Positions 17,605 through 36,404 of a stretch of 54,763 nt of DNA are shown one piece after another. Numbering within the stretch: position 1 is the stretch's first letter; every line of letters starts with the position of its first letter. Made by a program: the position numbers and the translations under genes. This stretch comes from Bacteroidales bacterium. Its GTDB lineage: Bacteria > Bacteroidota > Bacteroidia > Bacteroidales > F082. The stretch covers positions 1 through 54,763 of the forward strand of contig JAFYNK010000017.1 in assembly GCA_017548125.1 (NCBI GenBank), given 5' to 3'. The notes below the pieces were generated by a model. It made no database searches, was not told the DNA's origin, and saw only the letters and a program-made list of their open reading frames with translations.

Positions 17605-17643
17605 GTTTTCCTGAGGTTGCCATTACGGTAACTTCGGGAAAAC
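17605..17643 (+). ncRNA. Strong leader hairpin upstream of nuclease gene 1
   Basis: Seventeen paired positions, three of them G-U, enclose the loop ATTAC (17622-17626). The G-U pairs only work in the plus-strand RNA, which argues for a folded 5' leader and not a DNA palindrome. It lies between the TACTTTTG promoter and the nuclease start at 17703. It may control translation or stability of the nuclease message. Confidence 0.6.
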
Positions 17644-17702
17644 TAAAAGGAAACACGTTGAGAAACTGAAAGTTGAAAAATGAGAATTGAAAATTGAGAA
17701 TT

Positions 17703-18122
17703 ATGACAGACAAGAAAACTGAAGTAGGAAAATATGGTCCTATCTATGAACAATTTAAAGACAATCCTGTAGGAGCAATCAAGCACCTCCGTAAAATGAA
17801 AAACGGAGAATGTAGAAATGTTATATATAGAGATGATTTGGGTTATGTAGATTTTATATGGGGAGAAGTGACAGATCCTATAAAGCACAAAGGATATGGA
17901 TTGGCTCATATTATAGATAAGCATGAAAATGAAATAAAAAGGTTGCATTATGAACTTGCCACTTTTATTTCGATTGTTATTAAGTATGGGAAGTTTAATG
18001 TTAAAAAATCAACACCACAAAAACGTGTTTACGAAAGTGAAACTTTCAGATTTATTGTCGCTGTTGAAAAAGGAAGGAATTGGCTGTTGACTTCATTTGA
18101 CTTAATAAAAAAGCCCAAATAA
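17703..18122 (+). CDS. BECR-fold nuclease-like protein 1
   Basis: This 139-aa protein has the pattern of phage Barnase-EndoU-ColicinE5/D-RelE (BECR) nucleases found in polyvalent proteins: GYGLAHIIDKHE, then VIKYGKFNV, then FRFIVAVEKGRNWLLTSFD at the end. The histidines in AHIIDKH and the C-terminal LLTSF strand are the usual conserved points. An ATG at 17694 is also possible. It would cleave RNA if active. A folded leader lies upstream and a convergent small-RNA unit overlaps its 3' end. It resembles the proteins at 34423 and, more weakly, 35916. Confidence 0.65.
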   Translation: MTDKKTEVGKYGPIYEQFKDNPVGAIKHLRKMKNGECRNVIYRDDLGYVDFIWGEVTDPIKHKGYGLAHIIDKHENEIKRLHYELATFISIVIKYGKFNVKKSTPQKRVYESETFRFIVAVEKGRNWLLTSFDLIKKPK

Positions 18123-18198
18123 ATGGGCTTCTTTATCTCGGCATTGTTAAAAATATCGACGCTAACAATCTTTCGTTTCCTACGCTGTATGGAAAACC
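18105..18198 (-). ncRNA. Convergent small RNA unit 1
   Basis: On the minus strand a -7 element TATATTTG (plus 18203-18210) is followed by about 90 nt ending in the stem AAGCCCA / TGGGCTT (18111-18130) and a T6 run. An internal hairpin ATTGTTA / TAACAAT is also present. The terminator stem overlaps the last codons of nuclease gene 1. No good -33 box was found, so this is the weakest of the three units. Confidence 0.45.
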
Positions 18199-18253
18199 TT
18201 TGCAAATATACAAATAAAATTATATAAATGTTTAAAAACCAATAAAAAATATT

Positions 18254-18886
18254 ATGGAAGACACAGAAAAAAGAGAAGTATGCCAAGGATATACCATTAA
18301 GATGTATCCTGAGGAAATAGCACGTTTCAAGCGTCTTGCTTCCGAAATGGATAATGTCAAGACCCAGCGCGACGCCTTGAACGCCTTGATGGATTTCTTC
18401 GAGAATCCTAAGACCGTTGTCAAGGACAACCCAGAACTCATCAAGAAAAACCAGGAACTTCAAGATGAAGTTGATGAGTTGAAAGAAGCTAACGACAATC
18501 TTAAAAAGCACATCGAAGATCTTAACGTCAAGGTTGAGGAACTCATCAATTCTGGCAATGAGTCGGCAATGTCGGCACAGAAGATACAATTAGAGCTCGA
18601 AGCACTCAAAGAAGAGTCAGAACACCAGGCTAAGGCTAATGCTAACAGACCAGCCAATATCTTTGAGGTGGAGGTTCATCCTGTACCGTTCCATTTCCTG
18701 AAGAAAATGTCGGAATATCTCACAGCACAGAAAAAGGCTGAAGTCACTCCAGGATATATACTCGTGGATTTGTTCCTGAAAGACCTGCAGAACCCACGCT
18801 CAAACAACCTTCCTTATATCGTCTCGACAGATGAGATTAGAAAGGTTCTGGAAGAGTATCGCAAAGCGCATCCGGAAGAGAATTGA
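18254..18886 (+). CDS. Coiled-coil phage protein
   Basis: This 210-aa protein has a helical N-terminus (about 15-55: MYPEEIARFKRLASEMDNVK), a long coiled coil (about 65-125: NQELQDEVDELKEANDNLKK) and a compact C-terminal region (about 140-205: HPVPFHFLKKMSEYL). No family is recognised. It is the first gene of the block leading to the packaging ATPase, so a scaffold or DNA-organising role is possible. Confidence 0.6.
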   Translation: MEDTEKREVCQGYTIKMYPEEIARFKRLASEMDNVKTQRDALNALMDFFENPKTVVKDNPELIKKNQELQDEVDELKEANDNLKKHIEDLNVKVEELINSGNESAMSAQKIQLELEALKEESEHQAKANANRPANIFEVEVHPVPFHFLKKMSEYLTAQKKAEVTPGYILVDLFLKDLQNPRSNNLPYIVSTDEIRKVLEEYRKAHPEEN

Positions 18887-18919
18887 AAATTGTTTGAAAA
18901 ACTTTAAAAAATCAAAATT

Positions 18920-19219
18920 ATGGATTTGAAAGACAAAATGAAAGCTAAGGCTATCAAAGCAGCTTTGAGTATGCTTCCGCCAGGATTGTTTGACAACGCT
19001 CCTGAAGATATTGAAGGATTTATCGCTTCAATGTTGTCAACTGTTGAAGTAAGCGAGGGCGAATGTGCTGCCGTGCTTATTATAGAAGGCAAAACCGGAT
19101 ATATGGTCAATATCATCCGTCTTGATGCGGAATTGAAAATGACTATTGTCAACCAGATGACTCTGAAAGAATTTTTTGATAAAGTATTAAAAACTATACA
19201 AGATGGCAACATTGGATGA
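18920..19219 (+). CDS. Uncharacterised phage protein
   Basis: This 99-aa protein starts MDLKDKMKAKAIKAALSMLP, then an acidic helix and two beta-strand-like segments (CAAVLIIEGKTGYMVNIIRL). No family is recognised. It overlaps the next gene by 17 nt, showing tight operon packing. Confidence 0.55.
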   Translation: MDLKDKMKAKAIKAALSMLPPGLFDNAPEDIEGFIASMLSTVEVSEGECAAVLIIEGKTGYMVNIIRLDAELKMTIVNQMTLKEFFDKVLKTIQDGNIG

Positions 19220-19844
19220 TTTGATGGGTGGCGGTGCTTCTTCTTCAGAAGAAAACATCATAACTCTTGGTGATATAACAGGTCAGTTCAAAACCAAGAC
19301 GCAGCGTCAGTCGTATTATGAACCTGAACCAGAACCGACTTCTGATCTCGACGCTTCTCTGATAGATCCTGAAGGCGAGACTACAGCATCTGACTACACT
19401 GGCGTATGGTCTCCTGAAGGAGATATGGAAAGAACGGTATCTCCAGAACGTGCACACCGTACAGGCGAACGTATCGCTCGCGTGATAGATACAGGCTTTA
19501 ATTTCCTTGCATCTAATATTGTAGCCAAAGGCAGCGGCAAGGAATACAAGGCCGAAGAGAAAGACCTTGCCGACATAGCCGAGGCATGGGGCGACATAGC
19601 AGAGGAAAAGCAGTGGGAGTTCTCTCCAGGATGGCAGCTTGTAATACTTTACGCCATCGTTTACGGTCCTTTAGCAAAAGAGGCGTTCAACGACAGACGT
19701 ATCATGGAAATAGAGCAGAAGCAATTGGAACAGGAAGCTAAAATGAGACAGATGCAGAATGAAATCGAACAGCTCAATAGAATCAGAGAATACGAAGCAG
19801 CCGAAGCCGCAAGAAAAGCCAAAGCAGAAGCAGGAAACGCGTGA
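19203..19844 (+). CDS. Phage protein with helical C-terminus, before the packaging ATPase
   Basis: This 213-aa protein has a disordered acidic N-terminal half (about 1-90, repeated E/P), then a possible membrane-associated helix (about 143-162: GWQLVILYAIVYGPLAKEAF) and a long charged coiled coil (165-213). It may be a virion membrane protein or ATPase partner. It ends 10 nt before the preferred start of the ATPase gene. Confidence 0.55.
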   Translation: MATLDDLMGGGASSSEENIITLGDITGQFKTKTQRQSYYEPEPEPTSDLDASLIDPEGETTASDYTGVWSPEGDMERTVSPERAHRTGERIARVIDTGFNFLASNIVAKGSGKEYKAEEKDLADIAEAWGDIAEEKQWEFSPGWQLVILYAIVYGPLAKEAFNDRRIMEIEQKQLEQEAKMRQMQNEIEQLNRIREYEAAEAARKAKAEAGNA

Positions 19845-19854
19845 GGTCTTTAAA

Positions 19855-20400
19855 ATGGTGTTCGTGGGCAAACCAGGAACAGGCAAGACAACGGTATTGC
19901 GCAGGATACTTAAAGCAGCTCTCGATGAGGGCAGACGCGCGCTAATCGTGACGCCTCACGAAAACGAGTGGGAAGACATACCTTTCGTCTGTCCGCGTTT
20001 TCCTGAAAGAATACGCACATATAAAGGCGCAAGACGTCTGATATGCCACGGCGAAAAGGATATTCTTGAAAACATCAAGGAAAACTTCGTCAACGGTTTC
20101 CTGATCTTCGACGACTGCAAGGCTTACATCCGTCCAGGCGACCGCGTTTATATGGAGCAGTTCCTGTTGGCCTTGCGACAGAAAGACGTCGATTTCGCCT
20201 GTTGTGGCCATGGATTTACTACCATTCCGCCAGTATTCTACGCCTTTGCAACCAATTTCGTAATATTCGCCACGACGGACAACCCGAAGAAACGCAAGGA
20301 TGACGTGATGAATTATGAAGCTTTGGAAAAAGTAGTGAATGAAGTGAACCTTAAAGCACAGACCAACAAGCATTATTTTAGAATAATAAAGAATCAGTGA
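19855..20400 (+). CDS. P-loop ATPase, probable genome-packaging ATPase
   Basis: From ATG 19855 the 181-aa protein begins directly with Walker A (VGKPGTGKTT, residues 4-13), has Walker B GFLIFDDCKAYI near 81-92, and then LLALRQKDVDFACCGHGF and FVIFATTD, the layout of short FtsK/HerA-superfamily packaging ATPases of tailless phages such as PRD1 P9. A start at 19759 would overlap the previous gene by 86 nt and add an unlikely Q/K-rich leader. No membrane segment is present, which argues against a filamentous-phage Zot protein. The assignment rests on motif layout only. Confidence 0.6.
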   Translation: MVFVGKPGTGKTTVLRRILKAALDEGRRALIVTPHENEWEDIPFVCPRFPERIRTYKGARRLICHGEKDILENIKENFVNGFLIFDDCKAYIRPGDRVYMEQFLLALRQKDVDFACCGHGFTTIPPVFYAFATNFVIFATTDNPKKRKDDVMNYEALEKVVNEVNLKAQTNKHYFRIIKNQ

Positions 20401-20448
20401 TATTCAATGAGATATTAATAGTTAGGAAATGCTTTGCAAATAAAGATT

Positions 20449-20616
20449 ATGGAAGAACCAAGACCAATGACATTGAAGGAACTTGCCGACAGATGGAACG
20501 TGTCTGTTCGTACTGTGCGCAAGTGGCTGGAGCCTTTTGAAGATGAGATTGGACCGCGAGTGGGTAACATATATTCTTCACACCAGGTGAAGATAATACT
20601 TAGCAAATTGGAGTAA
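20449..20616 (+). CDS. Small MerR/excisionase-like HTH protein
   Basis: This 55-aa protein (MTLKELADRWNVSVRTVRKW core) is a single winged-helix or helix-turn-helix unit of the kind found in phage excisionases and small regulators. It could direct excision with the integrase at 36973, or regulate the virion genes. A terminator follows. Confidence 0.65.
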   Translation: MEEPRPMTLKELADRWNVSVRTVRKWLEPFEDEIGPRVGNIYSSHQVKIILSKLE

Positions 20617-20650
20617 TTGTTTTTTTTCATAGATTGGTTATTTAATGTTG

Positions 20651-20680
20651 AAAGTTCCTGGAAACGGGAACTTTTTTTTA
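20651..20680 (+). terminator. Terminator before toxin-antitoxin cassette 1
   Basis: AAAGTTCC and GGAACTTT form a stem followed by a run of T. It insulates the packaging block from cassette 1. Confidence 0.85.
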
Positions 20681-20690
20681 ACAAAAAAAA

Positions 20691-20736
20691 TCATCTACAG
20701 GTAAACCTCAAGGAATGATTTTTGTGTATATTTGCA
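20691..20736 (+). promoter_or_regulatory. Repeated promoter/operator, copy 1
   Basis: These 46 bp are identical to 21351-21396. They hold a TGTAGAT-type box (ATCTACA, 20693-20699), the inner palindrome AGGTAAACCT, an outer inverted repeat AAATCAT / ATGATTT, and a -7 element TATATTTG just before the first gene of the cassette. No -33 TTG is present, so activation or strong repression by a bound protein is likely. Confidence 0.75.
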
Positions 20737-20753
20737 TAATTAAATTATTGAAT

Positions 20754-21053
20754 ATGCCTACGATATTTGAATATTTTGGATTTGTTTTTAAGTTTTATTC
20801 AAACGAACATGAACCGATACACGTTCATGTAATTAAGTCCGGTTGCGAGATTATATTTGATATCATAATGGAGAATGGAAACGTGAAGGAGATAAGACAA
20901 CGCCGAGGAACATTGCCTCCATTATCTGAAAAAGATGCAAAGACAGCATATCAGTTTGTAGAAAAATATGCTTCTAATATTGTCAACAAATGGATTAACT
21001 ACTTCGTATTGAGAAAAACCATTAGAAAAACTGTCATTAGAAAAAAACTTTAG
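20754..21053 (+). CDS. DUF4160 protein, candidate toxin-antitoxin partner
   Basis: This 99-aa protein has the DUF4160 pattern: MPTIFEYFGFVFKFYSNEHE, PIHVHV, IKEIRQRRG-like centre and a helical end (FVEKYASNIVNKWINYF). DUF4160 and DUF2442 genes are very often paired, and the pair is predicted to be a toxin-antitoxin-like module. It starts behind the 46-bp repeat and is followed 4 nt later by the DUF2442 gene. The activity is not established. Confidence 0.8.
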   Translation: MPTIFEYFGFVFKFYSNEHEPIHVHVIKSGCEIIFDIIMENGNVKEIRQRRGTLPPLSEKDAKTAYQFVEKYASNIVNKWINYFVLRKTIRKTVIRKKL

Positions 21054-21057
21054 TACC

Positions 21058-21306
21058 ATGGAAACTCCAATATATATAGTAAAAGTAACTTGTAATGACA
21101 ATATTACAATAGATGTCGTTTTTAACGATAACACAGAAAGAAATATCAATGTCGGAGAGTTCATCAGAGTGCATCCGCATCCTCAATACAACAAATACCT
21201 TAATCCAGCCAACTTTAAAAAAGGGAAATTAATAGATGGAAATGTAGTCTGGGGCAATGACCTTGAATTTCACATCCATGACCTGTATTCAGGAAATTTG
21301 AACTAA
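21058..21306 (+). CDS. DUF2442 protein, partner of DUF4160
   Basis: This 82-aa protein begins METPIYIVKVTCNDNITIDV and has the acidic, beta-rich DUF2442 layout (VVWGNDLEFHIHDLY near the end). It pairs with the DUF4160 gene upstream. A UUCG-loop terminator closes the cassette at 21311. Confidence 0.8.
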   Translation: METPIYIVKVTCNDNITIDVVFNDNTERNINVGEFIRVHPHPQYNKYLNPANFKKGKLIDGNVVWGNDLEFHIHDLYSGNLN

Positions 21307-21310
21307 ATAC

Positions 21311-21340
21311 AAAAGACTGCTTCGGCGGTCTTTTTTTTTT
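21311..21340 (+). terminator. UUCG-loop terminator of cassette 1
   Basis: GACTGC-TTCG-GCGGTC with flanking A and a T10 run. A related TTCG-loop terminator follows the spanin gene at 36904. Confidence 0.9.
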
Positions 21341-21350
21341 AACAAAAAAA

Positions 21351-21396
21351 TCATCTACAGGTAAACCTCAAGGAATGATTTTTGTGTATATTTGCA
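21351..21396 (+). promoter_or_regulatory. Repeated promoter/operator, copy 2
   Basis: An exact copy of 20691-20736, including the ATCTACA box, nested inverted repeats and TATATTTG. It drives the antitoxin-toxin pair at 21423. Confidence 0.75.
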
Positions 21397-21422
21397 ATGG
21401 AAACAAATAAAAACTTAAAGTT

Positions 21423-21641
21423 ATGGCAGAATACATTTTAAGAGTTAATGCAAGATGCAAGAACGCCCGTACTCTCATTGATTATTTGAAGAATCTTGAT
21501 TATGTAGATCTTCAGGAGAAAAAGGAGAATAAATCAATGTTGCCTAAAGAAACCTTACAGGCTATTAGAGAAATGCAGAATGGTGACGTAGTGGTATGCA
21601 CCAGTATGGAAGATTATAAAAGAAAAGTGCGCCATGCGTAA
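21423..21641 (+). CDS. Probable antitoxin of a YafQ/RelE-type module
   Basis: This 72-aa protein lies directly upstream of, and overlaps by 8 nt, a YafQ-like toxin gene, the usual antitoxin-first order. It has a beta-strand N-terminus and a charged C-terminal tail (NGDVVVCTSMEDYKRKVRHA) likely to wrap the toxin. It has no obvious helix-turn-helix, so autoregulation may use another protein on the 46-bp repeat. Confidence 0.75.
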   Translation: MAEYILRVNARCKNARTLIDYLKNLDYVDLQEKKENKSMLPKETLQAIREMQNGDVVVCTSMEDYKRKVRHA

Positions 21642-21924
21642 CATCGTTTACACCAAGCAATATCTGAAGGATTTGGATAAGCTTAGAAAGAGCAAGAAGT
21701 TTGATGAAGATGAATTGGATAAGGTGATTGAGAAACTGGCCAATGACATTAAATTGGATAAGAAATATAAAGATCATAAACTTCAAGGCGAACTCTCCGG
21801 TTTTAGAGATTGTCACATAAAGAATGATTTGGTATTGCTGTATTACAAGACACAGACAAACGAATTGAAAATTCTAACACTTTCCAGATTGGGAAGTCAT
21901 GCTCAGGTTCTTCCTGGGTTCTAA
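21634..21924 (+). CDS. YafQ/RelE-family mRNA interferase toxin
   Basis: This 96-aa basic protein has the YafQ pattern: IVYTKQYLKDLDKLRKSKKF, the central LQGELSGFRDCHI, and the strand DLVLLYYKTQTNELKILTLSRLGSHAQV with the late His in GSHAQV. Members cleave mRNA on the ribosome. It ends 5 nt before a terminator. Confidence 0.88.
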   Translation: MRNIVYTKQYLKDLDKLRKSKKFDEDELDKVIEKLANDIKLDKKYKDHKLQGELSGFRDCHIKNDLVLLYYKTQTNELKILTLSRLGSHAQVLPGF

Positions 21925-21928
21925 TCTT

Positions 21929-21955
21929 AAAGACCTCCTCCAAGGTCTTTTTTTT
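21929..21955 (+). terminator. Terminator of cassette 2
   Basis: AAAGACCT and AGGTCTTT with a T8 run directly behind the toxin stop. Confidence 0.9.
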
Positions 21956-22035
21956 ATCCTCTCAAACGCCTTATTTCTCACGGCTTACGGCTCATAGCCC
22001 ATGGCTCTCCGATGAAAAATTTTTTCAAAAAACTC

Positions 22036-22065
22036 TTGACAAATTGAAAAAACGCCGTATCTTTG
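22036..22065 (+). promoter_or_regulatory. Canonical promoter of the structured RNA
   Basis: TTG (22036-22038), exactly 19 nt, then TATCTTTG (22058-22065): a full match to the Bacteroidota TTG-N19-TAnnTTTG promoter. Transcription would start at about 22071. Confidence 0.85.
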
Positions 22066-22069
22066 CCTC

Positions 22070-22234
22070 GCTAAAGTTTAATTGTAAAGGCGTGAAAAAT
22101 CATCACGTCCGTTCTTGCGGGCTTTTTTTATGCCCTGAAAAGATATATGGTATTCCACCCGTGCATACGTTGTAATGGCGTATGCGAGCCTTTACAATAG
22201 ACTTTAGCAGCGGGTCGGGATACCGTTTTTTTTA
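22070..22234 (+). ncRNA. Compact structured RNA with predicted pseudoknot
   Basis: The closing stem pairs GCTAAAGT (22070-22077) with ACTTTAGC (22201-22208) and ATTGTAAAGGC (22081-22091) with GCCTTTACAAT (22188-22198). Inside lie hairpins CGTGA/TCACG, GGGC/GCCC and GCATACG/CGTATGC. GGTATTCCACCC (22149-22160) inside the stem pairs with GGGTCGGGATACC (22212-22224) outside it, an H-type pseudoknot, followed by T8. It has its own promoter, and the next gene starts 27 nt after the T-run. It is either an independent RNA or a leader regulator. I cannot name a known family. The rest of 21956-22035 is low-complexity spacer. Confidence 0.7.
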
Positions 22235-22260
22235 TTCCGAATGCTAAAAATTATTGTAAA

Positions 22261-22482
22261 ATGGGAAAAGATTTACTTACACAAAATCAGAAGGCGGAAA
22301 TTATCGAAAGCCTTTATGAAATCAGAAAAATCACAACAGATTTTGAAACCGTACTAAAACATGATTACCAATGTTTTCATGGCGACCAGCAGCAAAGATT
22401 TTACTCACAGTTTATGTTTGAGATTTCCCGTTGCTACAAAAGAGCTTTGGATGTCTTGACAATGAAAGGAGGTGCAAGATGA
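22261..22482 (+). CDS. Small helical phage protein
   Basis: This 73-aa helical protein starts behind the structured RNA and begins a tightly coupled run; its TGA overlaps the next ATG. The sequence KAEIIESLYEIRKITTDFET gives no recognised family. Confidence 0.55.
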   Translation: MGKDLLTQNQKAEIIESLYEIRKITTDFETVLKHDYQCFHGDQQQRFYSQFMFEISRCYKRALDVLTMKGGAR

Positions 22483-22724
22483 GAACAATAGAACTCCACA
22501 GAATATCGTTGGTTGACGACTACTGCAAGTCAAAAACAGAAGAAGACAGCAATTTGAGTCTTTGCATAGACATCTTGTCGTCAACAATCCTTTCAATAGT
22601 GAAAGACGCCGATAACGACGACTGCATGGACACCAGACAGCTGTATAATGTCGCGCATGTGCTTCGCACGCTTGAAGAGCTACGCATGGAAGCTAAGGTA
22701 ATCAAGGAAGGAGGTGTGGCATGA
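22479..22724 (+). CDS. Small helical phage protein with strong RBS
   Basis: This 81-aa protein begins MRTIELHRISLVDDYCKSKT. Its ATG overlaps the previous stop and is preceded by AAAGGAGGTG, a Shine-Dalgarno site unusual for Bacteroidota. No family is recognised. Confidence 0.55.
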   Translation: MRTIELHRISLVDDYCKSKTEEDSNLSLCIDILSSTILSIVKDADNDDCMDTRQLYNVAHVLRTLEELRMEAKVIKEGGVA

Positions 22725-22924
22725 AGACGATAAACATAGAGCAGCTTCCGACCTTGGACAACATCCTTACAGGCGACATCATAGAGCATTTCCGCAAGAC
22801 TATAACCGACGTGATGCGCGTCACCAACAGCAACGCCGAGCATATAATAAAGGAGATGCTGTTCACGTTAACGATACTTGAAGACATCCGGGAAGAATAC
22901 TCGGATGTCATGGAAAAAGAATAA
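22721..22924 (+). CDS. Small helical phage protein with strong RBS
   Basis: This 67-aa acidic helical protein (MKTINIEQLPTLDNILTGDI) has its ATG overlapping the previous TGA behind GAAGGAGGTG. It has no known family. It forms a three-gene coupled set with 22261 and 22479. Confidence 0.55.
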   Translation: MKTINIEQLPTLDNILTGDIIEHFRKTITDVMRVTNSNAEHIIKEMLFTLTILEDIREEYSDVMEKE

Positions 22925-22955
22925 CTTTGCAGAATTATTAATTAAAATCAAAATT

Positions 22956-23381
22956 ATGAAGAAACTGAATTATTATTACGGAATGGACGCCTGTATGGCG
23001 TTGTTCGTGGTCTTGCTGTTCTGCAAGAACCTTAAAGGAAGCTGGGCCGTTGCTACAGTGGCCGCATTTGCGCTGCTGTTCACGTTAGCCTATACGTCAA
23101 AATCAAAAGTCACCAACGAAAGCGGCGAGACGGTCAAGGCGAAGCCTGAAGACGCCTGCGAGCCTCTTTTGGATGTGGCACCAGGTGCCGAGCATTACGG
23201 CTTTGACGGCATCAAGGCAGCTGGCAAGGTCTTCAAAGCAGCCAACGGCACACACATAGTTGTGAAGAAAGACGGCAGCGTCAGGACCAGATCCATTACA
23301 GGCAAAATGGTAAATGCAATTCGTGGCGGAGTTCTTGCCAGTGCACCGGATGAATGCTGGGATGAGTTATTTAAAGCGTAA
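22956..23381 (+). CDS. Tandem membrane protein, paralogue 1
   Basis: This 141-aa protein has two N-terminal hydrophobic segments (about 10-25 and 30-46) and a soluble C-terminal domain with KVTNESGETVKAKPEDAC and GVLASAPDECWDELFKA. The same C-terminal domain occurs in the next two genes, so the three are paralogues. It is probably a virion or infected-cell membrane protein. The start is ATG 22956. Confidence 0.65.
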   Translation: MKKLNYYYGMDACMALFVVLLFCKNLKGSWAVATVAAFALLFTLAYTSKSKVTNESGETVKAKPEDACEPLLDVAPGAEHYGFDGIKAAGKVFKAANGTHIVVKKDGSVRTRSITGKMVNAIRGGVLASAPDECWDELFKA

Positions 23382-23393
23382 GGAGGTTCAGCT

Positions 23394-23843
23394 ATGAAGA
23401 AATGTATTAAAAAGAATCTTTATGCAGCGGTCGATGTGATGGCAGTCGTCACCCTGCTGCTGTTGGTCGCTGCAATAGCGAAGAAAGACGAAACATTAGG
23501 AAAATGTTTCTTTGGAAGTCTAACTGTCACTGGTGCTTTAGGGCTGGCTCAAATGATGTTCGGTCATGCCAAGATTGAAAACGAATCTGGCACAGTCATT
23601 CACACCAAGTCGGAAGAAGGCTGTGACGCTGTGGAACTGTCGCCAGGAGGCGCACGCTACGACATCGACGGAGTGAATACCCAAGGTAAAGTTTATAAAC
23701 TTTCCGACGGATGCCATGCCGTAGCACGCAAAGACGGTACTGTTAAAGTGAAATCCCTTACAGGCAAGTTTGTAAACTCAGTAATGGGCGGAGTTCTTGT
23801 CAAAGCACCGGATAGTTGCTGGGACGAGTTGTTTAAAGCGTAA
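23394..23843 (+). CDS. Tandem membrane protein, paralogue 2
   Basis: This 149-aa protein has two N-terminal hydrophobic segments and a C-terminal domain ending APDSCWDELFKA. It shares almost the whole sequence with paralogue 3 except for the membrane segment (about residues 19-55). It is preceded by TAAGGAGGTTC, a Shine-Dalgarno site repeated exactly before paralogue 3. Confidence 0.65.
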   Translation: MKKCIKKNLYAAVDVMAVVTLLLLVAAIAKKDETLGKCFFGSLTVTGALGLAQMMFGHAKIENESGTVIHTKSEEGCDAVELSPGGARYDIDGVNTQGKVYKLSDGCHAVARKDGTVKVKSLTGKFVNSVMGGVLVKAPDSCWDELFKA

Positions 23844-23855
23844 GGAGGTTCAGCT

Positions 23856-24305
23856 ATGAAGAAATGTATTAAAAAAAATCTTTATGCAGCGGTAGATGTG
23901 ATGGCTGTTATTGCCGTACTGCTGCTGGTCGCCTTTGTGGCCAAGAAAGAGAAAAGTTTTTTGGTAGGCGCTGGAGCTTCTGCTGTATTAGGCGGAATCT
24001 CACTCGTTGCACAGGCGTTGTTCGGTCATGCCAAGATTGAGAACGAAACAGGCACAGTCATTCACACCAAGTCGGAAGAAGGCTGTGACGCTGTGGAACT
24101 GTCGCCAGGAGGCGCACGCTACGACATCGACGGAGTGAAGATACAGGACAAAGTTTATAAACTTTCCGACGGATGCCATGCTGTAGCACGCAAAGACGGA
24201 ACTGTAAAGGTGAAATCCCTTACAGGCAAGTTTGTAAACTCAGTAATGGGCGGAGTTCTTGTCAAAGCACCTGATGAATGCTGGGATGAGTTGTTTAAAG
24301 CGTAA
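23856..24305 (+). CDS. Tandem membrane protein, paralogue 3
   Basis: This 149-aa protein is nearly identical to paralogue 2 outside its membrane region (about 19-55), where the sequences differ strongly. The first 18 residues and the last about 90 match almost base for base, indicating a recent duplication with replacement or selection on the membrane part. A terminator follows. Confidence 0.65.
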   Translation: MKKCIKKNLYAAVDVMAVIAVLLLVAFVAKKEKSFLVGAGASAVLGGISLVAQALFGHAKIENETGTVIHTKSEEGCDAVELSPGGARYDIDGVKIQDKVYKLSDGCHAVARKDGTVKVKSLTGKFVNSVMGGVLVKAPDECWDELFKA

Positions 24306-24332
24306 ATTTTAGGACGGACATTTTTTTTTTTG

Positions 24333-24368
24333 AAGCGGCGGAGTCGTGTACTTCGCCGCTTTTTTTTA
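24333..24368 (+). terminator. Terminator after the paralogue cluster
   Basis: AAGCGGCG and CGCCGCTT form an 8-bp G/C-rich stem with a T8 run, just before the tandem array. Confidence 0.9.
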
Positions 24369-24370
24369 TG

Positions 24371-24490: not shown

Positions 24491-24513
24491 GAACCTGAGA
24501 ATTGCAGTCGATA

Positions 24514-28698: not shown

Positions 28699-28705
28699 GA
28701 TTGCT

Positions 28706-29845: not shown

Positions 29846-29868
29846 ATTATTAACTAAACAATTAAATT

Positions 29869-31056
29869 ATGTCAAACAACAAAATTAAAATCTACGGACA
29901 GTTAGAGTCCGGTGTGAAAGATGGCTACGTTACCGATTCGGAACAGGTTTGCACATCAAGACAAATTATGGTAGTTGGCGGCCCTTTAGCAGAAGTGGAC
30001 GATGACAAATGGCCTGAAGACTGGAAAGATGCTAAAGGCAACAAATTTATTCCCCAAGGTAAATCTTTGGATGATGTGCTTGGAGAATTGTTTTCCAAAA
30101 CTAAAGATGGCCAAGTTGAGTGGTCTGATGGCATTTGGAATCCTACTATCAACAATCCTCAGATAGACAATTTTAAATTAAGTGGAAACACTATCAGCAA
30201 GACTGGCAATGATTATGTAGTTGAAACTGGTGCAACAATCACTGCTACAATATCTGGAGGAAAAACAGTGTCAGACAATGTCAGAAAATGGACTCTTACT
30301 TTTGACAAAGATTGCGGCTATTATAAAGAAGTCGAAAATGAAAAAGGTCAAACAGAATGGGTTTGGACTGATGAAGACTATACGGTAAGTCAACAAGGTA
30401 CAGATAATTCATCTGATGTAAAATATGTTCTTAAATGGAACAATAGTACTGATGTAGAAGATGGTCTAAAAGTTCAGGATGGTGAAAACGCAATAGAAGT
30501 CACAACAACTCTGTGTACTGCAAGTGTTTCTAGATATAACGAAGAACATATTGTTTATGCGTCAAATAATATGAGAGAAAAGCTTGCCGACATTGAAAGT
30601 TCTATTGGTGATACAGGAGAGGAATCAACGACACTGAAAAATTCATCTGGAGATAATCCTTCTTGCTCAGCAAATGTTTATGGTTCGCTTAATTGCTTCC
30701 TTGGCGGTGTGGCAAAGAAAGTCAAGGCTAATGACACCGATATTTCCGATACAGTACGAAATTTAGGTAAAAAAGAATTCGTTCGTGGCATAACAACAAA
30801 CGGAAAAAGCATATCTTACACATTGACAATACCTGCTCAAGGCACAGGCATTATTGCCGTACCAGCTGGATACGAGTTGTTAGAAATTAAGGCTTTAGGC
30901 GCATTCCAGACAGAATTGTGGAAACAAGGCACCACGCAAAATGTAAAAATTGCTGATGCTGATAGCAAAACCCTACATGAATACACTATTTACATTGTTT
31001 CTAACAACGGCGATGGCAGCGCAGATTACGATAATATCAAAATTAAAAAACAATAA
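29869..31056 (+). CDS. Fibre-like virion surface protein 1
   Basis: This 395-aa protein begins with KIYGQLESGVKDGYVTDSEQ, closely matching the N-terminus of the protein at 31993 (KIFAPLESGCKDGYVTDIRQ). That shared stretch may dock both to the same virion site. The rest is beta-rich and low-complexity, as in Bacteroidota phage surface proteins, ending with an all-beta domain (about 300-395). A receptor-binding or spike role is inferred. Confidence 0.6.
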   Translation: MSNNKIKIYGQLESGVKDGYVTDSEQVCTSRQIMVVGGPLAEVDDDKWPEDWKDAKGNKFIPQGKSLDDVLGELFSKTKDGQVEWSDGIWNPTINNPQIDNFKLSGNTISKTGNDYVVETGATITATISGGKTVSDNVRKWTLTFDKDCGYYKEVENEKGQTEWVWTDEDYTVSQQGTDNSSDVKYVLKWNNSTDVEDGLKVQDGENAIEVTTTLCTASVSRYNEEHIVYASNNMREKLADIESSIGDTGEESTTLKNSSGDNPSCSANVYGSLNCFLGGVAKKVKANDTDISDTVRNLGKKEFVRGITTNGKSISYTLTIPAQGTGIIAVPAGYELLEIKALGAFQTELWKQGTTQNVKIADADSKTLHEYTIYIVSNNGDGSADYDNIKIKKQ

Positions 31057-31068
31057 ATACTATAAGAT

Positions 31069-31932
31069 ATGAGTTCAGCAATTAAAACAGCGTGGGGAAC
31101 AATGTTCGCCACCATGAGCAGACAGCCGTTAGAAGCAGACGTATGTTTCGAGAACGCACAAGCAGCTTTTACATATATCGAAAAAGAAACTGGTACAGCT
31201 TACGAAGGCAAGATAATTTCCATCAAATCAACATCTATCTATAAAGGAGTTGAATACCTTAAAGGCATCTACATGGTGACAGGTTATGGCAATTCCGCTT
31301 CTATCATGTATGCCTGCAACGGCGACAATGCTAAAAACAAGGTTGAAGTGTCGTGTGACACACCTGTCATTGAATATAAAGCGGAAGCAGCACCAGTAAC
31401 ATTTACATTTAACAGCAATAGTACTATTTCTTCAACAAAAGTAACTCAGAAGAATGAGTTAGGTTCAATTATAGTAGAAGAAAGTCTATTGGTTGGTGAT
31501 AGTGTCAATGTGGCATCTAATTTAGGCAAGACTACGCTCGAGTTCAAATTCACTTTTGAAGACGGCACTACAGAGACGCAGGAATATGTTATCGAACAGA
31601 TATTGCCTTTATATATCGGAGTAATGGCAGACGTTACAAACATCACTTCAAAATTAAGTGAACTTGAAATGTTAGTGTCAAAAGACCATGAAATTATAAT
31701 AGGTGCTTTAAATGTTGAAGAAAATGAAAAACTGGTTGTCTTCGCATCTAACGACCAGAGAACATTTAATAGACTCACATCAAGAGGATTCTATGTTCCT
31801 ATGACAGTAAAAGAAGATGAAGTATCTTACAGTATTGGTGAAGAAACCCATACTTTTACCATATATGAATCTGACAAATTGAAAGCAGGCAGTGTTGACG
31901 ACATTGTTTTGTCAATGGAATTTACAAATTGA
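31069..31932 (+). CDS. Fibre-like virion protein 2
   Basis: This 287-aa beta-rich protein has a helical/coiled segment (about 195-215: NITSKLSELEMLVSKD) and a C-terminal beta domain. Such layouts occur in trimeric fibres and their tip proteins. It closes a transcription unit with a terminator at 31945. Confidence 0.55.
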   Translation: MSSAIKTAWGTMFATMSRQPLEADVCFENAQAAFTYIEKETGTAYEGKIISIKSTSIYKGVEYLKGIYMVTGYGNSASIMYACNGDNAKNKVEVSCDTPVIEYKAEAAPVTFTFNSNSTISSTKVTQKNELGSIIVEESLLVGDSVNVASNLGKTTLEFKFTFEDGTTETQEYVIEQILPLYIGVMADVTNITSKLSELEMLVSKDHEIIIGALNVEENEKLVVFASNDQRTFNRLTSRGFYVPMTVKEDEVSYSIGEETHTFTIYESDKLKAGSVDDIVLSMEFTN

Positions 31933-31944
31933 TGTACAACAAGG

Positions 31945-31978
31945 GAGGCCGTCTAACAAGTTTTAGACGGCCTCTTAT
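31945..31978 (+). terminator. Terminator shared with the host chromosome
   Basis: A perfect 12-bp inverted repeat GAGGCCGTCTAA / TTAGACGGCCTC with loop CAAGTT. The same hairpin, in reverse orientation and with one base changed, lies between truB and glyS (49492-49521). Confidence 0.9.
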
Positions 31979-31992
31979 TAAAAAAATGAACT

Positions 31993-33048
31993 ATGGGAAA
32001 TGTTACAAAAATATTTGCTCCTTTGGAAAGCGGCTGCAAGGATGGGTATGTTACTGATATACGTCAAGTCAAAGGTGGCGTGCCAGTTATATATGTACCC
32101 AATAAAAGCAAAATGCCGGATACAAAAGAAAACGGCGTATTGTATATAATAGGTTCAGAACTTACAGACTTGACTGTGGCAACCGTGAAACCTTATAATG
32201 TAACGGAAACGTCTGTCCAATGCGAAGGGAATATCCTATTTGTGCCAGAAAGTCTTGAGGATGTTAGGGTTAGGTTTGGATTTAATTACAAAAGCAGAAA
32301 GGATTCAAGAAGTTTTGTTAAATACGTGGATGAACTAGCTGAAGATAGAAAATTCAATCTTTTATTGGATGAATTGGAAAGCGGCATGACTTATACGATA
32401 AAAGCATTTGGACATGCCAACGGCACGTTCTTTTTCGGGGAAGAATATACTATAACTACTTCTCCCAATACAGGTAATGAAGCAGGATATGATTGGGTTG
32501 ACTTAGGTCTGCCAAGCGGCACAAAATGGGCGACATGCAATGTTGGAGCTTCCAACCCTCAGGACTCTGGAGGGTACTATGCATGGGGCGAGACTGACAC
32601 AAAAGCCACTTATACATCAGGAACGTATAAAGAAGAGCTTCTTAATAAAATTATAGGCGATATTTCCGGCAATGTACAATACGACGCTGCTACAGCGAAC
32701 TGGGGCGGCGACTGGAGAATGCCGACAGGAAATGAAATGTATGAATTGAGAGATAAATGTGAATGGATCTTGACCACAATAAACAATAGACAAGTATTCC
32801 GAATAATAGGTCCTAACGGCAATGAAATATTTTTGCCTATGGCTGGTTACTACGACAAGAACAATCTTATGGACAGCGATTACAGATGTTACTGCTGGAC
32901 TGGAACGGAGTCGGCTGTCGAAGTTTTAAATCGGGCTATTTATGGATATTTCTACAAGAAAAGTGATGGCAAAAACGAGCTCGATGTGACTAATCAAATA
33001 AGTAGATATGTAGGTATGACAATAAGACCAGTTTTAAAAATCAATTAA
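31993..33048 (+). CDS. Fibre-like virion protein 3 with FISUMP domain
   Basis: This 351-aa protein has the LESGxKDGYVTD docking stretch at its N-terminus, an FN3-like middle (about 60-155) and a C-terminal FISUMP domain (about 165-350: WVDLGLPSGTKWATCNVGAS, YAWGETDTK, WRMPTGNEM, FLPMAGYY). FISUMP domains have a C-type-lectin-like fold common on Bacteroidota cell-surface and phage proteins, so host recognition is plausible. Confidence 0.8.
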   Translation: MGNVTKIFAPLESGCKDGYVTDIRQVKGGVPVIYVPNKSKMPDTKENGVLYIIGSELTDLTVATVKPYNVTETSVQCEGNILFVPESLEDVRVRFGFNYKSRKDSRSFVKYVDELAEDRKFNLLLDELESGMTYTIKAFGHANGTFFFGEEYTITTSPNTGNEAGYDWVDLGLPSGTKWATCNVGASNPQDSGGYYAWGETDTKATYTSGTYKEELLNKIIGDISGNVQYDAATANWGGDWRMPTGNEMYELRDKCEWILTTINNRQVFRIIGPNGNEIFLPMAGYYDKNNLMDSDYRCYCWTGTESAVEVLNRAIYGYFYKKSDGKNELDVTNQISRYVGMTIRPVLKIN

Positions 33049-33051
33049 GCT

Positions 33052-33696
33052 ATGCAAATAGATAATGACGTCAACAATATAATTTACGACAACAAACAAA
33101 TATCTGAAGTCTATTACGGAGATGAAAAAATATGGGAGAAGACCGGTATAAAAATATATTGGAACCAGCTGGTTAAAAAGGGTCTTACAAATAATAAAAA
33201 CGGAGTTGAAGTTACTTTTGACGAAACCACAGGATTGATGCACATAAATGGCACTGCAACTAGCGATTGGACTCTTTATGGCATTAAGTCATCTAATGCT
33301 ATATATACAGAACCAGTTCAGGGAAATGTTTTATATAGAAAATTGGAATGTGTTAATATAGGTGATAATAGTTATTTCGGAGGAAGTGATGAGTATATAG
33401 CTCAGGCTTTAAACCGATCTTATTTTGGATTCAGCAACTTTACAAAAACTTTTTTTAGTGGGCAGGGATATAAGCAAAGCATTGAATCTGTGACAGCAGG
33501 ATATAGATATCCTTTATTGAAAATTATAAAAGGTGATGTCTTTGATGATGTTACTTTCAGATGGCTTGTATATGACCTGACTATGATGTTCGGAAAAGGG
33601 AAAGAACCCGAAACAATAGAAAACTTTTACGAAAGAATAGAAGGCATATCAGTAAATATCAATGCTTATGATTCTGGAACTTATATTATAATTTAA
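33052..33696 (+). CDS. Fibre-like virion protein 4
   Basis: This 214-aa protein has an N-terminal linker (DVNNIIYDNKQISEVYYGDE) and a jelly-roll-like domain ending with FRWLVYDLTMMFGKGKEPET, a sequence style frequent at ends of phage fibre domains. It lies between the FISUMP protein and the holin. Confidence 0.65.
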   Translation: MQIDNDVNNIIYDNKQISEVYYGDEKIWEKTGIKIYWNQLVKKGLTNNKNGVEVTFDETTGLMHINGTATSDWTLYGIKSSNAIYTEPVQGNVLYRKLECVNIGDNSYFGGSDEYIAQALNRSYFGFSNFTKTFFSGQGYKQSIESVTAGYRYPLLKIIKGDVFDDVTFRWLVYDLTMMFGKGKEPETIENFYERIEGISVNINAYDSGTYIII

Positions 33697-33700
33697 AAAC

Positions 33701-34150
33701 ATGAACCTCCACCTTAACATAACACAAGACATCGGGCATGGGATCATGGTCATGTTCCTGTGCTTCTGCCTGGTGCTGTTCTCGGTCGTGATAGACCTGT
33801 TCACTGGCATACAGGCGGCGCGCAAGTGCAAGGAGAAGCTCCAGAGCCACATCCTCAGAAGAACCGTCAACAAGGTGATATCATATCTCACCGTCGTATT
33901 CTTCGGAATATTCATCGACATCTTAGGGCTGTGCTTCCCTTGGTACGCCATCCCTTACTGCTGTATCATCACGACATTGGGCGTGATACTCATTGAGGGA
34001 AAGTCGGTCATCGAGAACCACGCTAAGGCGAAGAATCCAGCGGCTCATGTTCCGGAAACAGTCCTTGACATAGCCGAGAAACTGAGGAAATACGACAACA
34101 TCGACACGCTGAAAGAAGCGTTGGAAATAATTGAAAAATCAAGAAAATAA
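33701..34150 (+). CDS. Holin, phage_holin_4 type
   Basis: This 149-aa membrane protein has three or four hydrophobic segments (about 10-33, 56-80, 85-105) and the DxxTGI motif (IDLFTGIQAARK), typical of phage holin family 4. It would release the GH24 lysozyme to the periplasm. Higher G/C and codon use differ from the preceding fibre gene. Confidence 0.85.
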   Translation: MNLHLNITQDIGHGIMVMFLCFCLVLFSVVIDLFTGIQAARKCKEKLQSHILRRTVNKVISYLTVVFFGIFIDILGLCFPWYAIPYCCIITTLGVILIEGKSVIENHAKAKNPAAHVPETVLDIAEKLRKYDNIDTLKEALEIIEKSRK

Positions 34151-34180
34151 TATTTATTAACAATTTAAAAATCAAAAGTT

Positions 34181-34420
34181 ATGGCAACAACAGCAAAAAA
34201 GACATCAACAAAGAAAGCAACAGCTAAACCAAAACATCGTATTTTAACAGCTGCAGAATTGAATAGTATGAAAAAACCATTGCAAAGTGCTATTCGAGCT
34301 TACACTAAAATCATTGAAAAAGGAGTGGCATTCCCTGATAAGGAAAAACAGATTAAAAAATTAAGAAGCAAATTGATTGAGGTTAACAATCAATTCGGTT
34401 GGACTGTAGCAATCCAATAA
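34181..34420 (+). CDS. Small basic cargo-module protein
   Basis: This 79-aa protein begins with a Lys/Thr/Ala tail (MATTAKKTSTKKATAKPK) and continues as a helical domain. The leader before its ATG (AACAATTTAAAAATCAAAAG) is repeated exactly before 35010. Similar basic tails start the next gene and the protein at 35916. It may bind DNA or serve as a packaging tail. Confidence 0.55.
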   Translation: MATTAKKTSTKKATAKPKHRILTAAELNSMKKPLQSAIRAYTKIIEKGVAFPDKEKQIKKLRSKLIEVNNQFGWTVAIQ

Positions 34421-34422
34421 CC

Positions 34423-34890
34423 ATGCCCACAAAAGCCAAAACCACATCAAAGGCTTCTGTGAAGACGCAGAAGCCTTTGGATAATCTATCATTAAAAACT
34501 CAAATGTTTTGTAACGAAGTCGATTATTCGGTATTGACAGAAGAACAAAAAAGAGTTTATAATGCTTTTGTTCACAGAAGGTCAAAGCCATACAATTTTG
34601 AGATAACCGACAAATACAATAACACCGTAAGGTTTGTATTATACACCAATAAACGTGACGATGGCGTTTTACATATCTTGTTAAAACATTATAAAGGTGT
34701 TGGAAGGGTAACAGCTTTAGAAATATTGAATTTCTGTGATGTTATTAGGAAAGGTGACTTTGATGTAGTAGATAATAAGATTGTATATACGTTAAAGCAA
34801 AGAGGATTGACTTATCAATTGACGGTTGCCCTAAAGGAAAGCAAAACAGGAACAAATATTTTGAAGAGTTTTTACTCTGATAGAAAATAA
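34423..34890 (+). CDS. BECR-fold nuclease-like protein 2
   Basis: This 155-aa protein starts with a basic tail (MPTKAKTTSKASVKTQKP), then the same pattern as the protein at 17703: GVLHILLKHYKG, then DVIRKGDFDV, then LTYQLTVALKESKTGTNILK and SFYSD at the end. This is the BECR nuclease core layout known from polyvalent phage proteins. The ATG at 34423 is 2 nt after the previous stop. A convergent small RNA with a canonical promoter overlaps its 3' end. Confidence 0.62.
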   Translation: MPTKAKTTSKASVKTQKPLDNLSLKTQMFCNEVDYSVLTEEQKRVYNAFVHRRSKPYNFEITDKYNNTVRFVLYTNKRDDGVLHILLKHYKGVGRVTALEILNFCDVIRKGDFDVVDNKIVYTLKQRGLTYQLTVALKESKTGTNILKSFYSDRK

Positions 34891-34957
34891 AAAACTCTAT
34901 AACAGCCGGTAGCAGGAAGATACTTAGAACCCTGTGGTGCCAATTATAGAGTTTTAT
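34886..34957 (-). ncRNA. Convergent small RNA unit 2
   Basis: Minus-strand promoter: TTG (34992-34990), exactly 19 nt, then TATCTTTG (34970-34963), a full consensus match. About 70 nt later the transcript ends in the 12-bp stem AAAACTCTATAA / TTATAGAGTTTT and a T-rich run just inside the stop of nuclease gene 2. The promoter string GCAAAGATACAACAATTTTA (plus strand) is identical in unit 3. Confidence 0.75.
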
Positions 34958-35009
34958 GCCCGCAAAGATACAACAATTTTATTTATTAACAATTTAAAAA
35001 TCAAAAGTT

Positions 35010-35114
35010 ATGAAGATTAAAAAGCCTATTTGCAACAAGAAAGAGACTGCGACAACGAAATATCCAGTCTTGAAAAAGAAAACATCAAGTGCAACCAAAA
35101 ACAAGAAGAAATGA
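35010..35114 (+). CDS. Basic 34-aa leader peptide
   Basis: This peptide is Lys/Thr-rich (MKIKKPICNKKETATTKYPV start) and resembles the basic tails of neighbouring proteins. Its TGA overlaps the ATG of the next gene (ATGA), so translation is coupled. It could be a detached N-terminal tail of the next protein. Confidence 0.45.
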   Translation: MKIKKPICNKKETATTKYPVLKKKTSSATKNKKK

Positions 35115-35908
35115 AAGGCAAATTAACAGACACAAATAATACCATCAATAAGGGTGGTAGAGCTGAAAAATATTGGAGACATAAATCGGTTAAATCTAAA
35201 GCATCTTCTCCGGTTAGAAATAAAGATGAGATAGATCTTCAGAAAATACTTCAGAGGTATAATCTGAAAGGTTTTGAGTTTGGCAACTGGCTGAATAACG
35301 ATGAACGTTACGACCGTGTCCTTGCTTGTGAAGACTCTTTAGCTGAACTTGCAAAAATAATGGGTACAAATAATCTTGGCATGAATGCTCTTGTTGGTAT
35401 TGCTTTCGGTGCACGCGGATCCAAAGGTGCATTGGCGCACTATGAACCTGATTATAATATGATCAATATCACCAAAGAAAAAGGTGACGGATGTTTGGCT
35501 CATGAGTTTGGTCATGCCTTGGATTACAATATCGGAAGATATGTTGATCAACATAAACATTACAATTATCTTTCAGGTGGACGCTCCATAGCGGTCTCTC
35601 TTGATGATAATATTGGCGGTAAAATTCGTAATAATATGAATCTTGTTGTTGAATTGGCAGCCAAAATACTCAAAGATCGTATTAAAGATTTTCCAGACTA
35701 TTGGCATCGTAGAACTGAAATATTCGCACGTTTATTCGAGCAATATTGCGCATATAAACTCAAACAAGAAGGTTACAGAGATAAATTCTTGACTTCATCA
35801 TGGCAAGATTACGTTGATTCTCCTGTTTATTGGAGTTCTGCTGAATTTGCGAAACTTCTTCCAGCAATGGATACGTTGATTAAAAATATGAAAGTTGCAA
35901 TGAAATAA
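35111..35908 (+). CDS. Zincin-like polyvalent-protein domain
   Basis: This 265-aa protein has the metallopeptidase motif HEFGH (about residue 136) preceded by the typical stretch ALAHYEPDYNMINITKEKGD, and a C-terminal helical region with RRTEIFARLFEQYCAYKL, where a Glu may be the third ligand. This matches the LPD1-type zincin-like domain of large polyvalent phage proteins, here as a single protein. A start further upstream (TTG 35030) would overlap the leader peptide. It may cleave host proteins early in infection. Confidence 0.72.
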   Translation: MKGKLTDTNNTINKGGRAEKYWRHKSVKSKASSPVRNKDEIDLQKILQRYNLKGFEFGNWLNNDERYDRVLACEDSLAELAKIMGTNNLGMNALVGIAFGARGSKGALAHYEPDYNMINITKEKGDGCLAHEFGHALDYNIGRYVDQHKHYNYLSGGRSIAVSLDDNIGGKIRNNMNLVVELAAKILKDRIKDFPDYWHRRTEIFARLFEQYCAYKLKQEGYRDKFLTSSWQDYVDSPVYWSSAEFAKLLPAMDTLIKNMKVAMK

Positions 35909-35915
35909 TATCACC

Positions 35916-36338
35916 ATGCCCACAAAAACCAAAATACCAATAGGAGACAGCAGGGAAGACATCAGGGCAAGAGAGAGGATAATATCTAACTTTTATCATG
36001 AATGGTATGAAAATAATCCTGGCAAAAAGGTTTTCAACATTCATCTGAAAGATTATATCAACGTCAGATTTGTTTCAATAAATGAAACAATCAGGCACGC
36101 TTCAAAAAGTTATTATTCCACTCTTGCCGTCCTTCAGCTTGATGCTGTCTTGTCAAACGCTGTCAAATTCGGCAAACGTATGCCGATAAAGCAAGATGTC
36201 AAGAACCAGCAGCCGTTCTCTTATATGATAGAAATGCGTTGTGTTTTGCCATATATTGGAACTGCAAAACTTATGGTGGGAGTCAAGAAAAGTTCAAAGG
36301 AGAAAATACAATATTGTATTACCACTATAAAGACATAA
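35916..36338 (+). CDS. BECR/LPD3-like nuclease candidate 3
   Basis: This 140-aa protein has a short basic start (MPTKTKIPIGDSREDIRARE) whose ATG context matches that of 34423 (CCATGCCCACAAAA). Its C-terminal part (INETIRHASKSYYSTLAVLQ, LSNAVKFGKRMP, FSYMIEMRCVL, IQYCITTI) resembles LPD3/BECR-like domains of polyvalent proteins: a His helix, a hydrophobic core and a late Thr strand. It is followed by convergent small RNA unit 3. The nuclease call is less certain than for the other two. Confidence 0.5.
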   Translation: MPTKTKIPIGDSREDIRARERIISNFYHEWYENNPGKKVFNIHLKDYINVRFVSINETIRHASKSYYSTLAVLQLDAVLSNAVKFGKRMPIKQDVKNQQPFSYMIEMRCVLPYIGTAKLMVGVKKSSKEKIQYCITTIKT

Positions 36339-36404
36339 AAAAATCCTGTTGGATATTATGGGCTGATTGTCCGATCTTTCCCATCCAACAGGATTGTTTT
36401 TCTT
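36334..36404 (-). ncRNA. Convergent small RNA unit 3
   Basis: The minus-strand -7 element TATCTTTG (plus 36410-36417) lies in the same 20-bp string as unit 2. A TTG is 16 nt upstream, shorter than consensus. The transcript ends in the 13-bp stem AATCCTGTTGGAT / ATCCAACAGGATT with a T7 run at the stop of nuclease gene 3. Confidence 0.65.

Follow-up and report, generated by a model that had tools for sequence, protein, structure and literature searches.

The window analyzed here is the complete 54,763-nucleotide (nt) contig JAFYNK010000017.1 of a Bacteroidales bacterium of the family F082 (assembly GCA_017548125.1). It carries three short toxin-like genes on the plus strand, each followed by a convergent, structured RNA unit on the minus strand; a gene with its unit is referred to below as a cassette. 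Gene 1 (17703..18122) encodes 139 amino acids (aa) and belongs to PBECR1 (PF18809; Pfam E 8.4e-19, 68.4 bits against a gathering score of 27.6). Gene 2 (34423..34890) encodes 155 aa and falls into no Pfam family. Gene 3 (35916..36338) encodes 140 aa and belongs to LPD3 (PF18798; 34.1 bits, exceeding the gathering score of 27, E 3e-8). All observations reported here were obtained by computation.

Results

The genes and their convergent units were found in the window sequence at the positions given by a first-pass annotation of this DNA, which had also described a TAnnTTTG promoter at each unit and called all three genes BECR-like. Unit 1 (class A1; 18105..18202, minus strand, ends estimated) consists of two hairpins closed by a short stem and followed by a terminator stem (18111-18130) that spans the stop codon of gene 1. 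Its covariance-model match covers 18134-18205, the unit 1 sequence itself being in the model, and its -7 promoter element, TATATTTG (18203..18210, minus strand), occupies the same position in relatives. Unit 2 (class B; 34884..34961, minus strand, ends estimated) forms a long stem from its two ends with conserved internal loops, and is matched at 34885-34958 by a model that likewise includes it. Its promoter (34963..34992, minus strand) reads TTG (34992-34990), 19 nt and TATCTTTG (34970-34963), exactly the arrangement that had been described. Unit 3 (class C/F, below CF; 36337..36408, minus strand, ends estimated) has an outer stem, a GGG/CCC stem and a small inner hairpin. It was recovered at E 6e-7 by a class F covariance model built without the window sequence. 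The -7 element of unit 3, again TATCTTTG (36410..36417, minus strand), lies inside the 20-bp string GCAAAGATACAACAATTTTA that units 2 and 3 share, as the first-pass annotation had noticed (34962-34981 and 36409-36428). By exact matching, the 15-base core of this string, TTGTTGTATCTTTGC, occurs at only two places in the 2.73-Mb genome, units 2 and 3.

The terminal stem of every window unit overlaps or abuts the stop codon of its gene. The earlier claim that each gene ends in a minus-strand terminator was borne out for the stems, and the terminator scan made no minus-strand call there: it flagged unit 1 on the plus strand only and left units 2 and 3, with loops longer than it allows, unflagged. 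On the RNA strand, the folding z-scores of units 1, 2 and 3 were -1.45, -1.43 and -4.75; the other strand gave -1.53, -2.90 and -4.06. Single-sequence folding is therefore convincing for unit 3 only and leaves the strand undecided, so that recurrence, promoter and covariation carry the case.

The BECR label stands for gene 1 through its Pfam match. A BECR-like fold is possible for genes 2 and 3, whose predicted folds gave weak structural matches; the LPD3 model shows a weak likeness to RelE-type toxins, and gene 2 was compared in a second look only, starting from the Foldseek ranking. The PBECR1 profile matched nothing among Protein Data Bank sequences below E 0.01, with CdiA (7m5f_C) at 0.14. 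Pfam searches of the three window proteins at E up to 10 gave PBECR1, LPD3 (plus weak unrelated matches) or nothing, and found no ToxN, CptN or TenpN. Among six cassette proteins, PADLOC gave a single marginal match (SAVED, E 0.009) and NCBIfam had a model for none.

Relatives were sought in 173 genomes of the family, sampling up to 30 loci per query plus 80 further stretches. Homologues occur in 69 genomes for gene 3, 52 for gene 1 and 9 for gene 2, the window's own genome included. Profile searches gave 180 genes, of which 152 were distinct and had 120 nt or more of downstream sequence. The promoter motif GCAAAnnTA, which reads TAnnTTTGC on the opposite strand, is found within 300 nt downstream of 149 of the 152 (51/51 for PBECR1, 8/8 for the gene-2 type and 90/93 for LPD3), compared with 11 of 150 control gene ends (open reading frames, ORFs, of at least 120 aa from nine context stretches plus the window). 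An earlier, looser promoter test had given 67/68 homologues vs. 38/201 controls. Aligned on the -7 element, the relatives show GTTGTAnnTTTGCAG with upstream T-rich and TTG-like stretches. Among the three cases lacking the strict motif, L144 has an RNA that clusters with that of L145 and keeps the -7 element, with T replacing the C after it; L074 is a weak match of 81 aa; and L148 is the sole clear toxin homologue without a unit among the 152. A median dN/dS of 0.049 over 50 pairs indicates purifying selection on the proteins.

The first-pass annotation had staked its idea on the pairing recurring in related genomes, and it does so outside the family as well. Among 295 genomes drawn from the order, 11 carry PBECR1 and 10 carry LPD3; the window's own genus accounts for four of each. 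Ten homologues outside the family for which downstream sequence was available lie in ORFs of at most 220 aa, including one matched in two frames (G378) and one over its last third only (G213); nine of them have CAAAnnTA on the opposite strand within 260 nt and eight have GCAAAnnTA. This count leaves out a broken second copy (G208), a contig-cut gene (G431) and three domains in ORFs of at least 626 aa. By eye, G388 closely repeats classes A1 and E, and G462, G378 and G213 resemble class D. A class A1 pattern searched in a named genome collection returned 29 stretches, 28 of them from records titled Bacteroidales, Bacteroidia or Bacteroidetes, many of herbivore-gut origin; the remaining match, in Phyllobacterium, is probably due to chance.

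Phage sequences gave a sparser picture. The viral_contigs collection held no relatives of the three window proteins in a single-protein query that reaches close relatives only, and the patterns for A1, B and E RNAs matched no stretch there. Among phage records, LPD3 was unmatched and PBECR1 had 110 matches, all below 60% identity, including a DarB-like-annotated protein and Helicobacter phage proteins. On these sequence searches, we would not present the cassettes as typical of sequenced phages.

Covariation supports the folds of three classes, as judged by shuffles that ignore relatedness. In class A1 (15 sequences), 96.9% of cells are paired and 9 of 17 pairs show two-sided changes (1/500 shuffles as high), with a covariation score of 0.354 vs. 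0.135 that none of 500 shuffles reached. Class B (7 sequences) shows two-sided changes in 8 of 23 pairs (1/500) and a score of 0.348 vs. 0.142 (0/500), and class F (14 relatives, window left out) in 5 of 14 pairs (15/500) with 0.313 vs. 0.149 (0/500). Sliding the partner columns by 1 to 3 lowered the score in all three classes. Further pair types did not rise above shuffles in class A1 (148/500) or class F (330/500), and class E is nearly invariant, with one pair showing a two-sided change. The class F model, R2, was built from alignment A6 without window unit 3 and the relatives L018, L019 and L028; A6 replaced alignment A5, in which window unit 3 was out of register. The consensus fold from alignment A9 (class D) was poor, and no claims rest on it. 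Searches of Rfam 15 returned only tRNA in the window and, in 19 relatives jointly covering the 16 classes distinguished here (A1, A2, A3, A4, B, CF, D, E, G, H, I, J, K, Lm, M and N, A2 and A4 being distantly alike), nothing reaching the gathering score at E up to 1.

The stems could also be bidirectional terminators or DNA-level sites of cassette recombination, with no function as RNA. They are palindromic, the cassettes are found in clusters, and both strands fold about equally in several classes: folding energy is clearly better on the RNA strand in class E, about equal in A1 and B, slightly better on the other strand in class F and clearly so in class D. A strand test from G-U pairs (112 G-U vs. 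5 A-C) was dropped, the other-strand prediction also giving more G-U than A-C. A terminator, however, has no need of conserved unpaired loops or of a match between RNA class and toxin, and the promoter is conserved beside the unit and mostly missing at control gene ends, which makes this explanation very unlikely. Antitoxins are often proteins, and the minus-strand unit might instead encode a small antitoxin peptide. Gaps of one and two bases in alignments A4 and A7 speak against a coding role, however, and the stems co-vary, so that a peptide is scarcely credible.

The RNA class beside a gene is strongly clustered on the protein tree. For PBECR1, the four named gene-side classes require three changes, the minimum, with 12 of 48 toxins left out as unclassed; for LPD3, six named classes require six changes (minimum five), with 24 of 88 left out. 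When the unclassed toxins are counted as a group of their own, PBECR1 needs 5 changes against a shuffled mean of 27.0 and LPD3 13 against 52.9. In a larger LPD3 tree (92 rows, more classes), ten named classes need 11 changes (minimum nine) and all groups 16 vs. 60.9; classes E, H, G, M and I take one change each. Because close copies help these figures, they demonstrate clustering and not a rate. PBECR3 is a fourth toxin type, encoded by a 157-aa gene at L155:13078-13551 and L161:11414-11887 (E 1.3e-15 and 1.3e-18), with the same convergent unit and promoter at both loci. The seed of class K came from beside the former (L155, after 13551), and a class K RNA also adjoins a diverged PBECR1 gene in L094; one RNA class may thus serve two nuclease families, or be a passenger.

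RNAs without their toxins are not rare. The class A1 model, R1, has 29 matches in 27 genomes, 20 beside a full-length PBECR1 gene and nine without an intact toxin of their own. Two of the nine are promoter-side modules in rows beside another PBECR1 (G072, G076), one adjoins an LPD3 gene (G077:C3:69042, L162), one lies beside a truncated toxin (G133), three beside remnants (G084, G112, G122) and two beside no recognized toxin (G135:C8 and the weak G137:C8). Orphan A1 RNAs L194 (G084) and L212 (G112) retain a promoter; L195 (G135) and L196 (G137) do not. The class B model, R3, has 12 matches: eight beside a gene-2 homologue, two at contig ends and two without a gene-2 homologue, of which L211 keeps promoter, stem and terminator and L210 lacks a promoter. 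Model R2 has 38 matches, 21 of them beside a gene-3 homologue, two of these broken (G061, G091:C17); 13 others were inspected and four weak ones left aside. Seven of the 13 lie beside diverged LPD3-like genes (L200, L201, L205-L209; L206 and L208 assigned through their similarity to L207 and L209), and in the remaining six no intact toxin was recognized among the listed ORFs. Toxin loss is common and RNA loss rare, as would be expected of a toxin and its antidote.

Two named modules lie between the stop codon and the first promoter in 17 of the 152 units, and in 16 of these they are of unlike class (for example, gene-side module first, CF+M, M+CF, J+CF, A1+A4 and A4+A1); the sole like-class row holds two Lm modules. 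Five further units combine one named module with a long unclassed stretch. When LPD3 rows were compared with the most similar toxin that has a single named module, the gene-side class agreed in 11 of 15 cases and the promoter-side class in one (L019); seven of the 11 agreements use comparators (L004, L140, L147) whose own units contain an unclassed stretch ahead of the promoter, and the four clean ones are all to L012. Only class CF was open to a test on the promoter side, where its modules are scattered over the tree (6 changes among 7 rows, 63/500 shuffles as low, seven rows being few); gene-side CF modules cluster (4 changes among 15 rows, 0/500). Neighboring cassettes are present in L056, L029, L025, L059, L082 and L080.

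PADLOC, applied to 10 proteins picked by eye from five loci, gave clear defence names at four; L158, represented by one protein, had none. SspB, SspD, PbeA, type IIG and PDC-M proteins lie near the cassettes of L156, L157, L162 and L163, and this gene content suggests that these cassettes reside in chromosomal defence islands. Around L159 and L161, the ORF list reads as housekeeping genes, and we do not claim enrichment in defence islands. The RNA could be a working partner of the protein, serving a ribonucleoprotein effector as substrate, sensor or guide; such an effector might, for example, be activated by phage alteration of the RNA. That RNA class and protein type go together would agree with such a role, as would the defence proteins near four of the five scanned loci. 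Toxin-less RNAs, however, are fairly frequent and RNA-less toxins rare, a pattern that an antidote explains more simply, and we regard a working partner as quite unlikely.

In the window, cassettes 2 and 3 are separated by an LPD1-domain gene (35111..35908, plus strand; Pfam E 7.6e-11, with PHROG matches) that resembles segments of polyvalent phage proteins. Gene 3 comes directly after it, which leaves it without a unit. With a holin-like gene (33701-34150) on one side and an integrase (36973-38157) and tRNA-Thr (38291-38364) on the other, the two cassettes look, from gene content, to be near the right end of an integrated element. A 12-pair palindrome near the start of gene 2 (34448-34479) scores as a minus-strand terminator. 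Gene 1 has a TAnnTTTG-type element of its own, TACTTTTG, at 17570-17577 (region of interest 17570-17645), and the leader between it and the start codon reads by eye as a hairpin, TTTTCC...GGGAAAA. Farther upstream are iteron-like short repeated units such as ATCTACAAAT (17280-17485) and, before these, a DUF5906/DUF3854 gene (14975-17182).

Discussion

We propose that each cassette is a toxin plus a trans-acting RNA antitoxin, type III-like in working but without the type III layout, and assign this reading a probability of about 0.63. The convergent structured RNA is probably the antidote of an RNA-cutting type of enzyme. The suggestion of the first-pass annotation, an RNA-based antitoxin or control system with a possibly new toxin-RNA layout, thereby gains support at the level of sequence from recurrence, the match of class to toxin type, orphan RNAs and purifying selection. 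In the proposed mechanism, the toxin would be a stand-alone PBECR1, PBECR3, LPD3 or related domain, probably a ribonuclease (RNase) of the BECR fold. The RNA (~70-100 nt per single module) would be transcribed from a constitutive-type Bacteroidales promoter of its own, TTG...TAnnTTTG, and share its terminator stem with the end of the toxin gene. It would take a class-specific fold and most likely bind and block the cognate toxin protein, as in type III systems. We infer that rows arise by a deletion running from the first promoter through the second toxin of adjacent cassettes; a neighboring toxin gene would be lost while its RNA persists, fused behind the promoter that follows. In the resulting row of antidotes, the gene-adjacent module would be the cognate one.

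Several observations weigh against this proposal. Fold energies leave the strand unsettled, and an LPD3 gene outside the family (G356) has neither promoter motif and no unit. The orphans L195, L196 and L210, which lack a promoter, may be mere remnants. None of CF, D and J forms a single clade on the larger LPD3 tree (4, 3 and 4 changes, those of J in 7 rows), and 30 of the 152 units contain no classed module, so that the class match covers the named part only. Two further points, the shared terminator, which leaves room for antisense action, and a slight excess of complementarity between RNA and messenger RNA (mRNA), would fit a type I-like arrangement in which the RNA pairs with the toxin mRNA via overlapping 3' ends or read-through and blocks or destabilizes it.

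In type I pairs, convergent genes can overlap at the terminator, and overlapping 3' ends occur in some of them; gene and RNA are likewise convergent here, with overlapping ends. Native RNA-mRNA pairs from 102 cassettes had a mean z of 0.51 vs. 0.16 for non-cognate pairs (one-sided p 0.042), by shuffles that preserve base composition only. The excess is small, however: the mean rank among non-cognate RNAs was 0.466 for the mRNA and 0.446 for the start region, where 0.5 means none, and complementarity of window units 1, 2 and 3 gave p 0.11, 0.81 and 0.29. This slight excess over the non-cognate control moves the type I-like reading up and the trans-acting antitoxin down, each slightly. The covarying stems are more in keeping with trans action on a protein, as are promoter-side modules of a different class, and we consider the type I-like arrangement unlikely. 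Type I toxins are also usually small hydrophobic proteins with antisense RNAs, as far as the sources available to us go, whereas the cassettes encode domain proteins of 139-155 aa with weak complementarity.

If the trans-acting antitoxin is correct, the cassettes would form a large overlooked set of RNA-antitoxin toxin systems in Bacteroidales, comprising, by the present division, 16 RNA classes and four toxin types. PBECR and LPD3 domains that stand alone would gain a partner and a testable role, LPD3 would be hinted to have an RNase fold, and rows of antidote RNAs would have a specificity readable by a cross-neutralization matrix. A more speculative proposal, which we consider doubtful as a whole, is that rows of unlike modules act as a cumulative, heritable antidote memory: RNAs would be retained after their toxins have gone and would neutralize nuclease domains of the same families when phages or conjugative elements bring them in, among them the PBECR and LPD3 domains of polyvalent proteins that are injected. 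Were it true, the rows would be an RNA immunity array working without Cas proteins.

The literature searched, mainly abstract openings with few subscription journals or bioRxiv, yielded no convergent RNA partner of PBECR or LPD3 genes. Candidate microbiome RNAs are listed in PMC8040213, of which a part was available to us. The following comparisons likewise draw on the available parts of the papers cited. Iyer et al. (2017) described PBECR and LPD domains in polyvalent proteins and mentioned solo PBECR versions in phages (PMC5512222); the available part names no RNA partner and calls LPD functions elusive, whereas here LPD3 occurs in the same kind of cassette as PBECR1. The prophage system AbiF-RCd22 of Clostridioides difficile combines a toxin in the lysis module with a structured RNA (PMC12373285). 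Unlike in the cassettes, RCd22 lies upstream, is suggested to be co-transcribed, has two copies of one motif and accompanies an Abi_2/AbiD/F protein in a type III layout.

Type III systems themselves (ToxIN, CptIN, TenpIN) pair an endoribonuclease-type toxin with a small structured RNA, and occur on chromosomes, plasmids and one prophage (PMC5086642). Their RNA precedes the toxin on the same strand and consists of repeats, with a single promoter and a terminator in front of the toxin gene (PMC5086642), and the repeats measure 34-50 nt in known families (PMC12373285); near the three window genes, a search for type III-type repeats found only short-period ones of 7-19 nt. The cassettes resemble type III systems in pairing an RNase-type toxin, as predicted here, with a small structured RNA. 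They differ in that the RNA gene follows the toxin gene, sits on the opposite strand and has its own promoter, an arrangement outside the type III definition, and in that PBECR or LPD3 toxins with a single module or a row of mostly unlike modules take the place of ToxN, CptN or TenpN with repeats.

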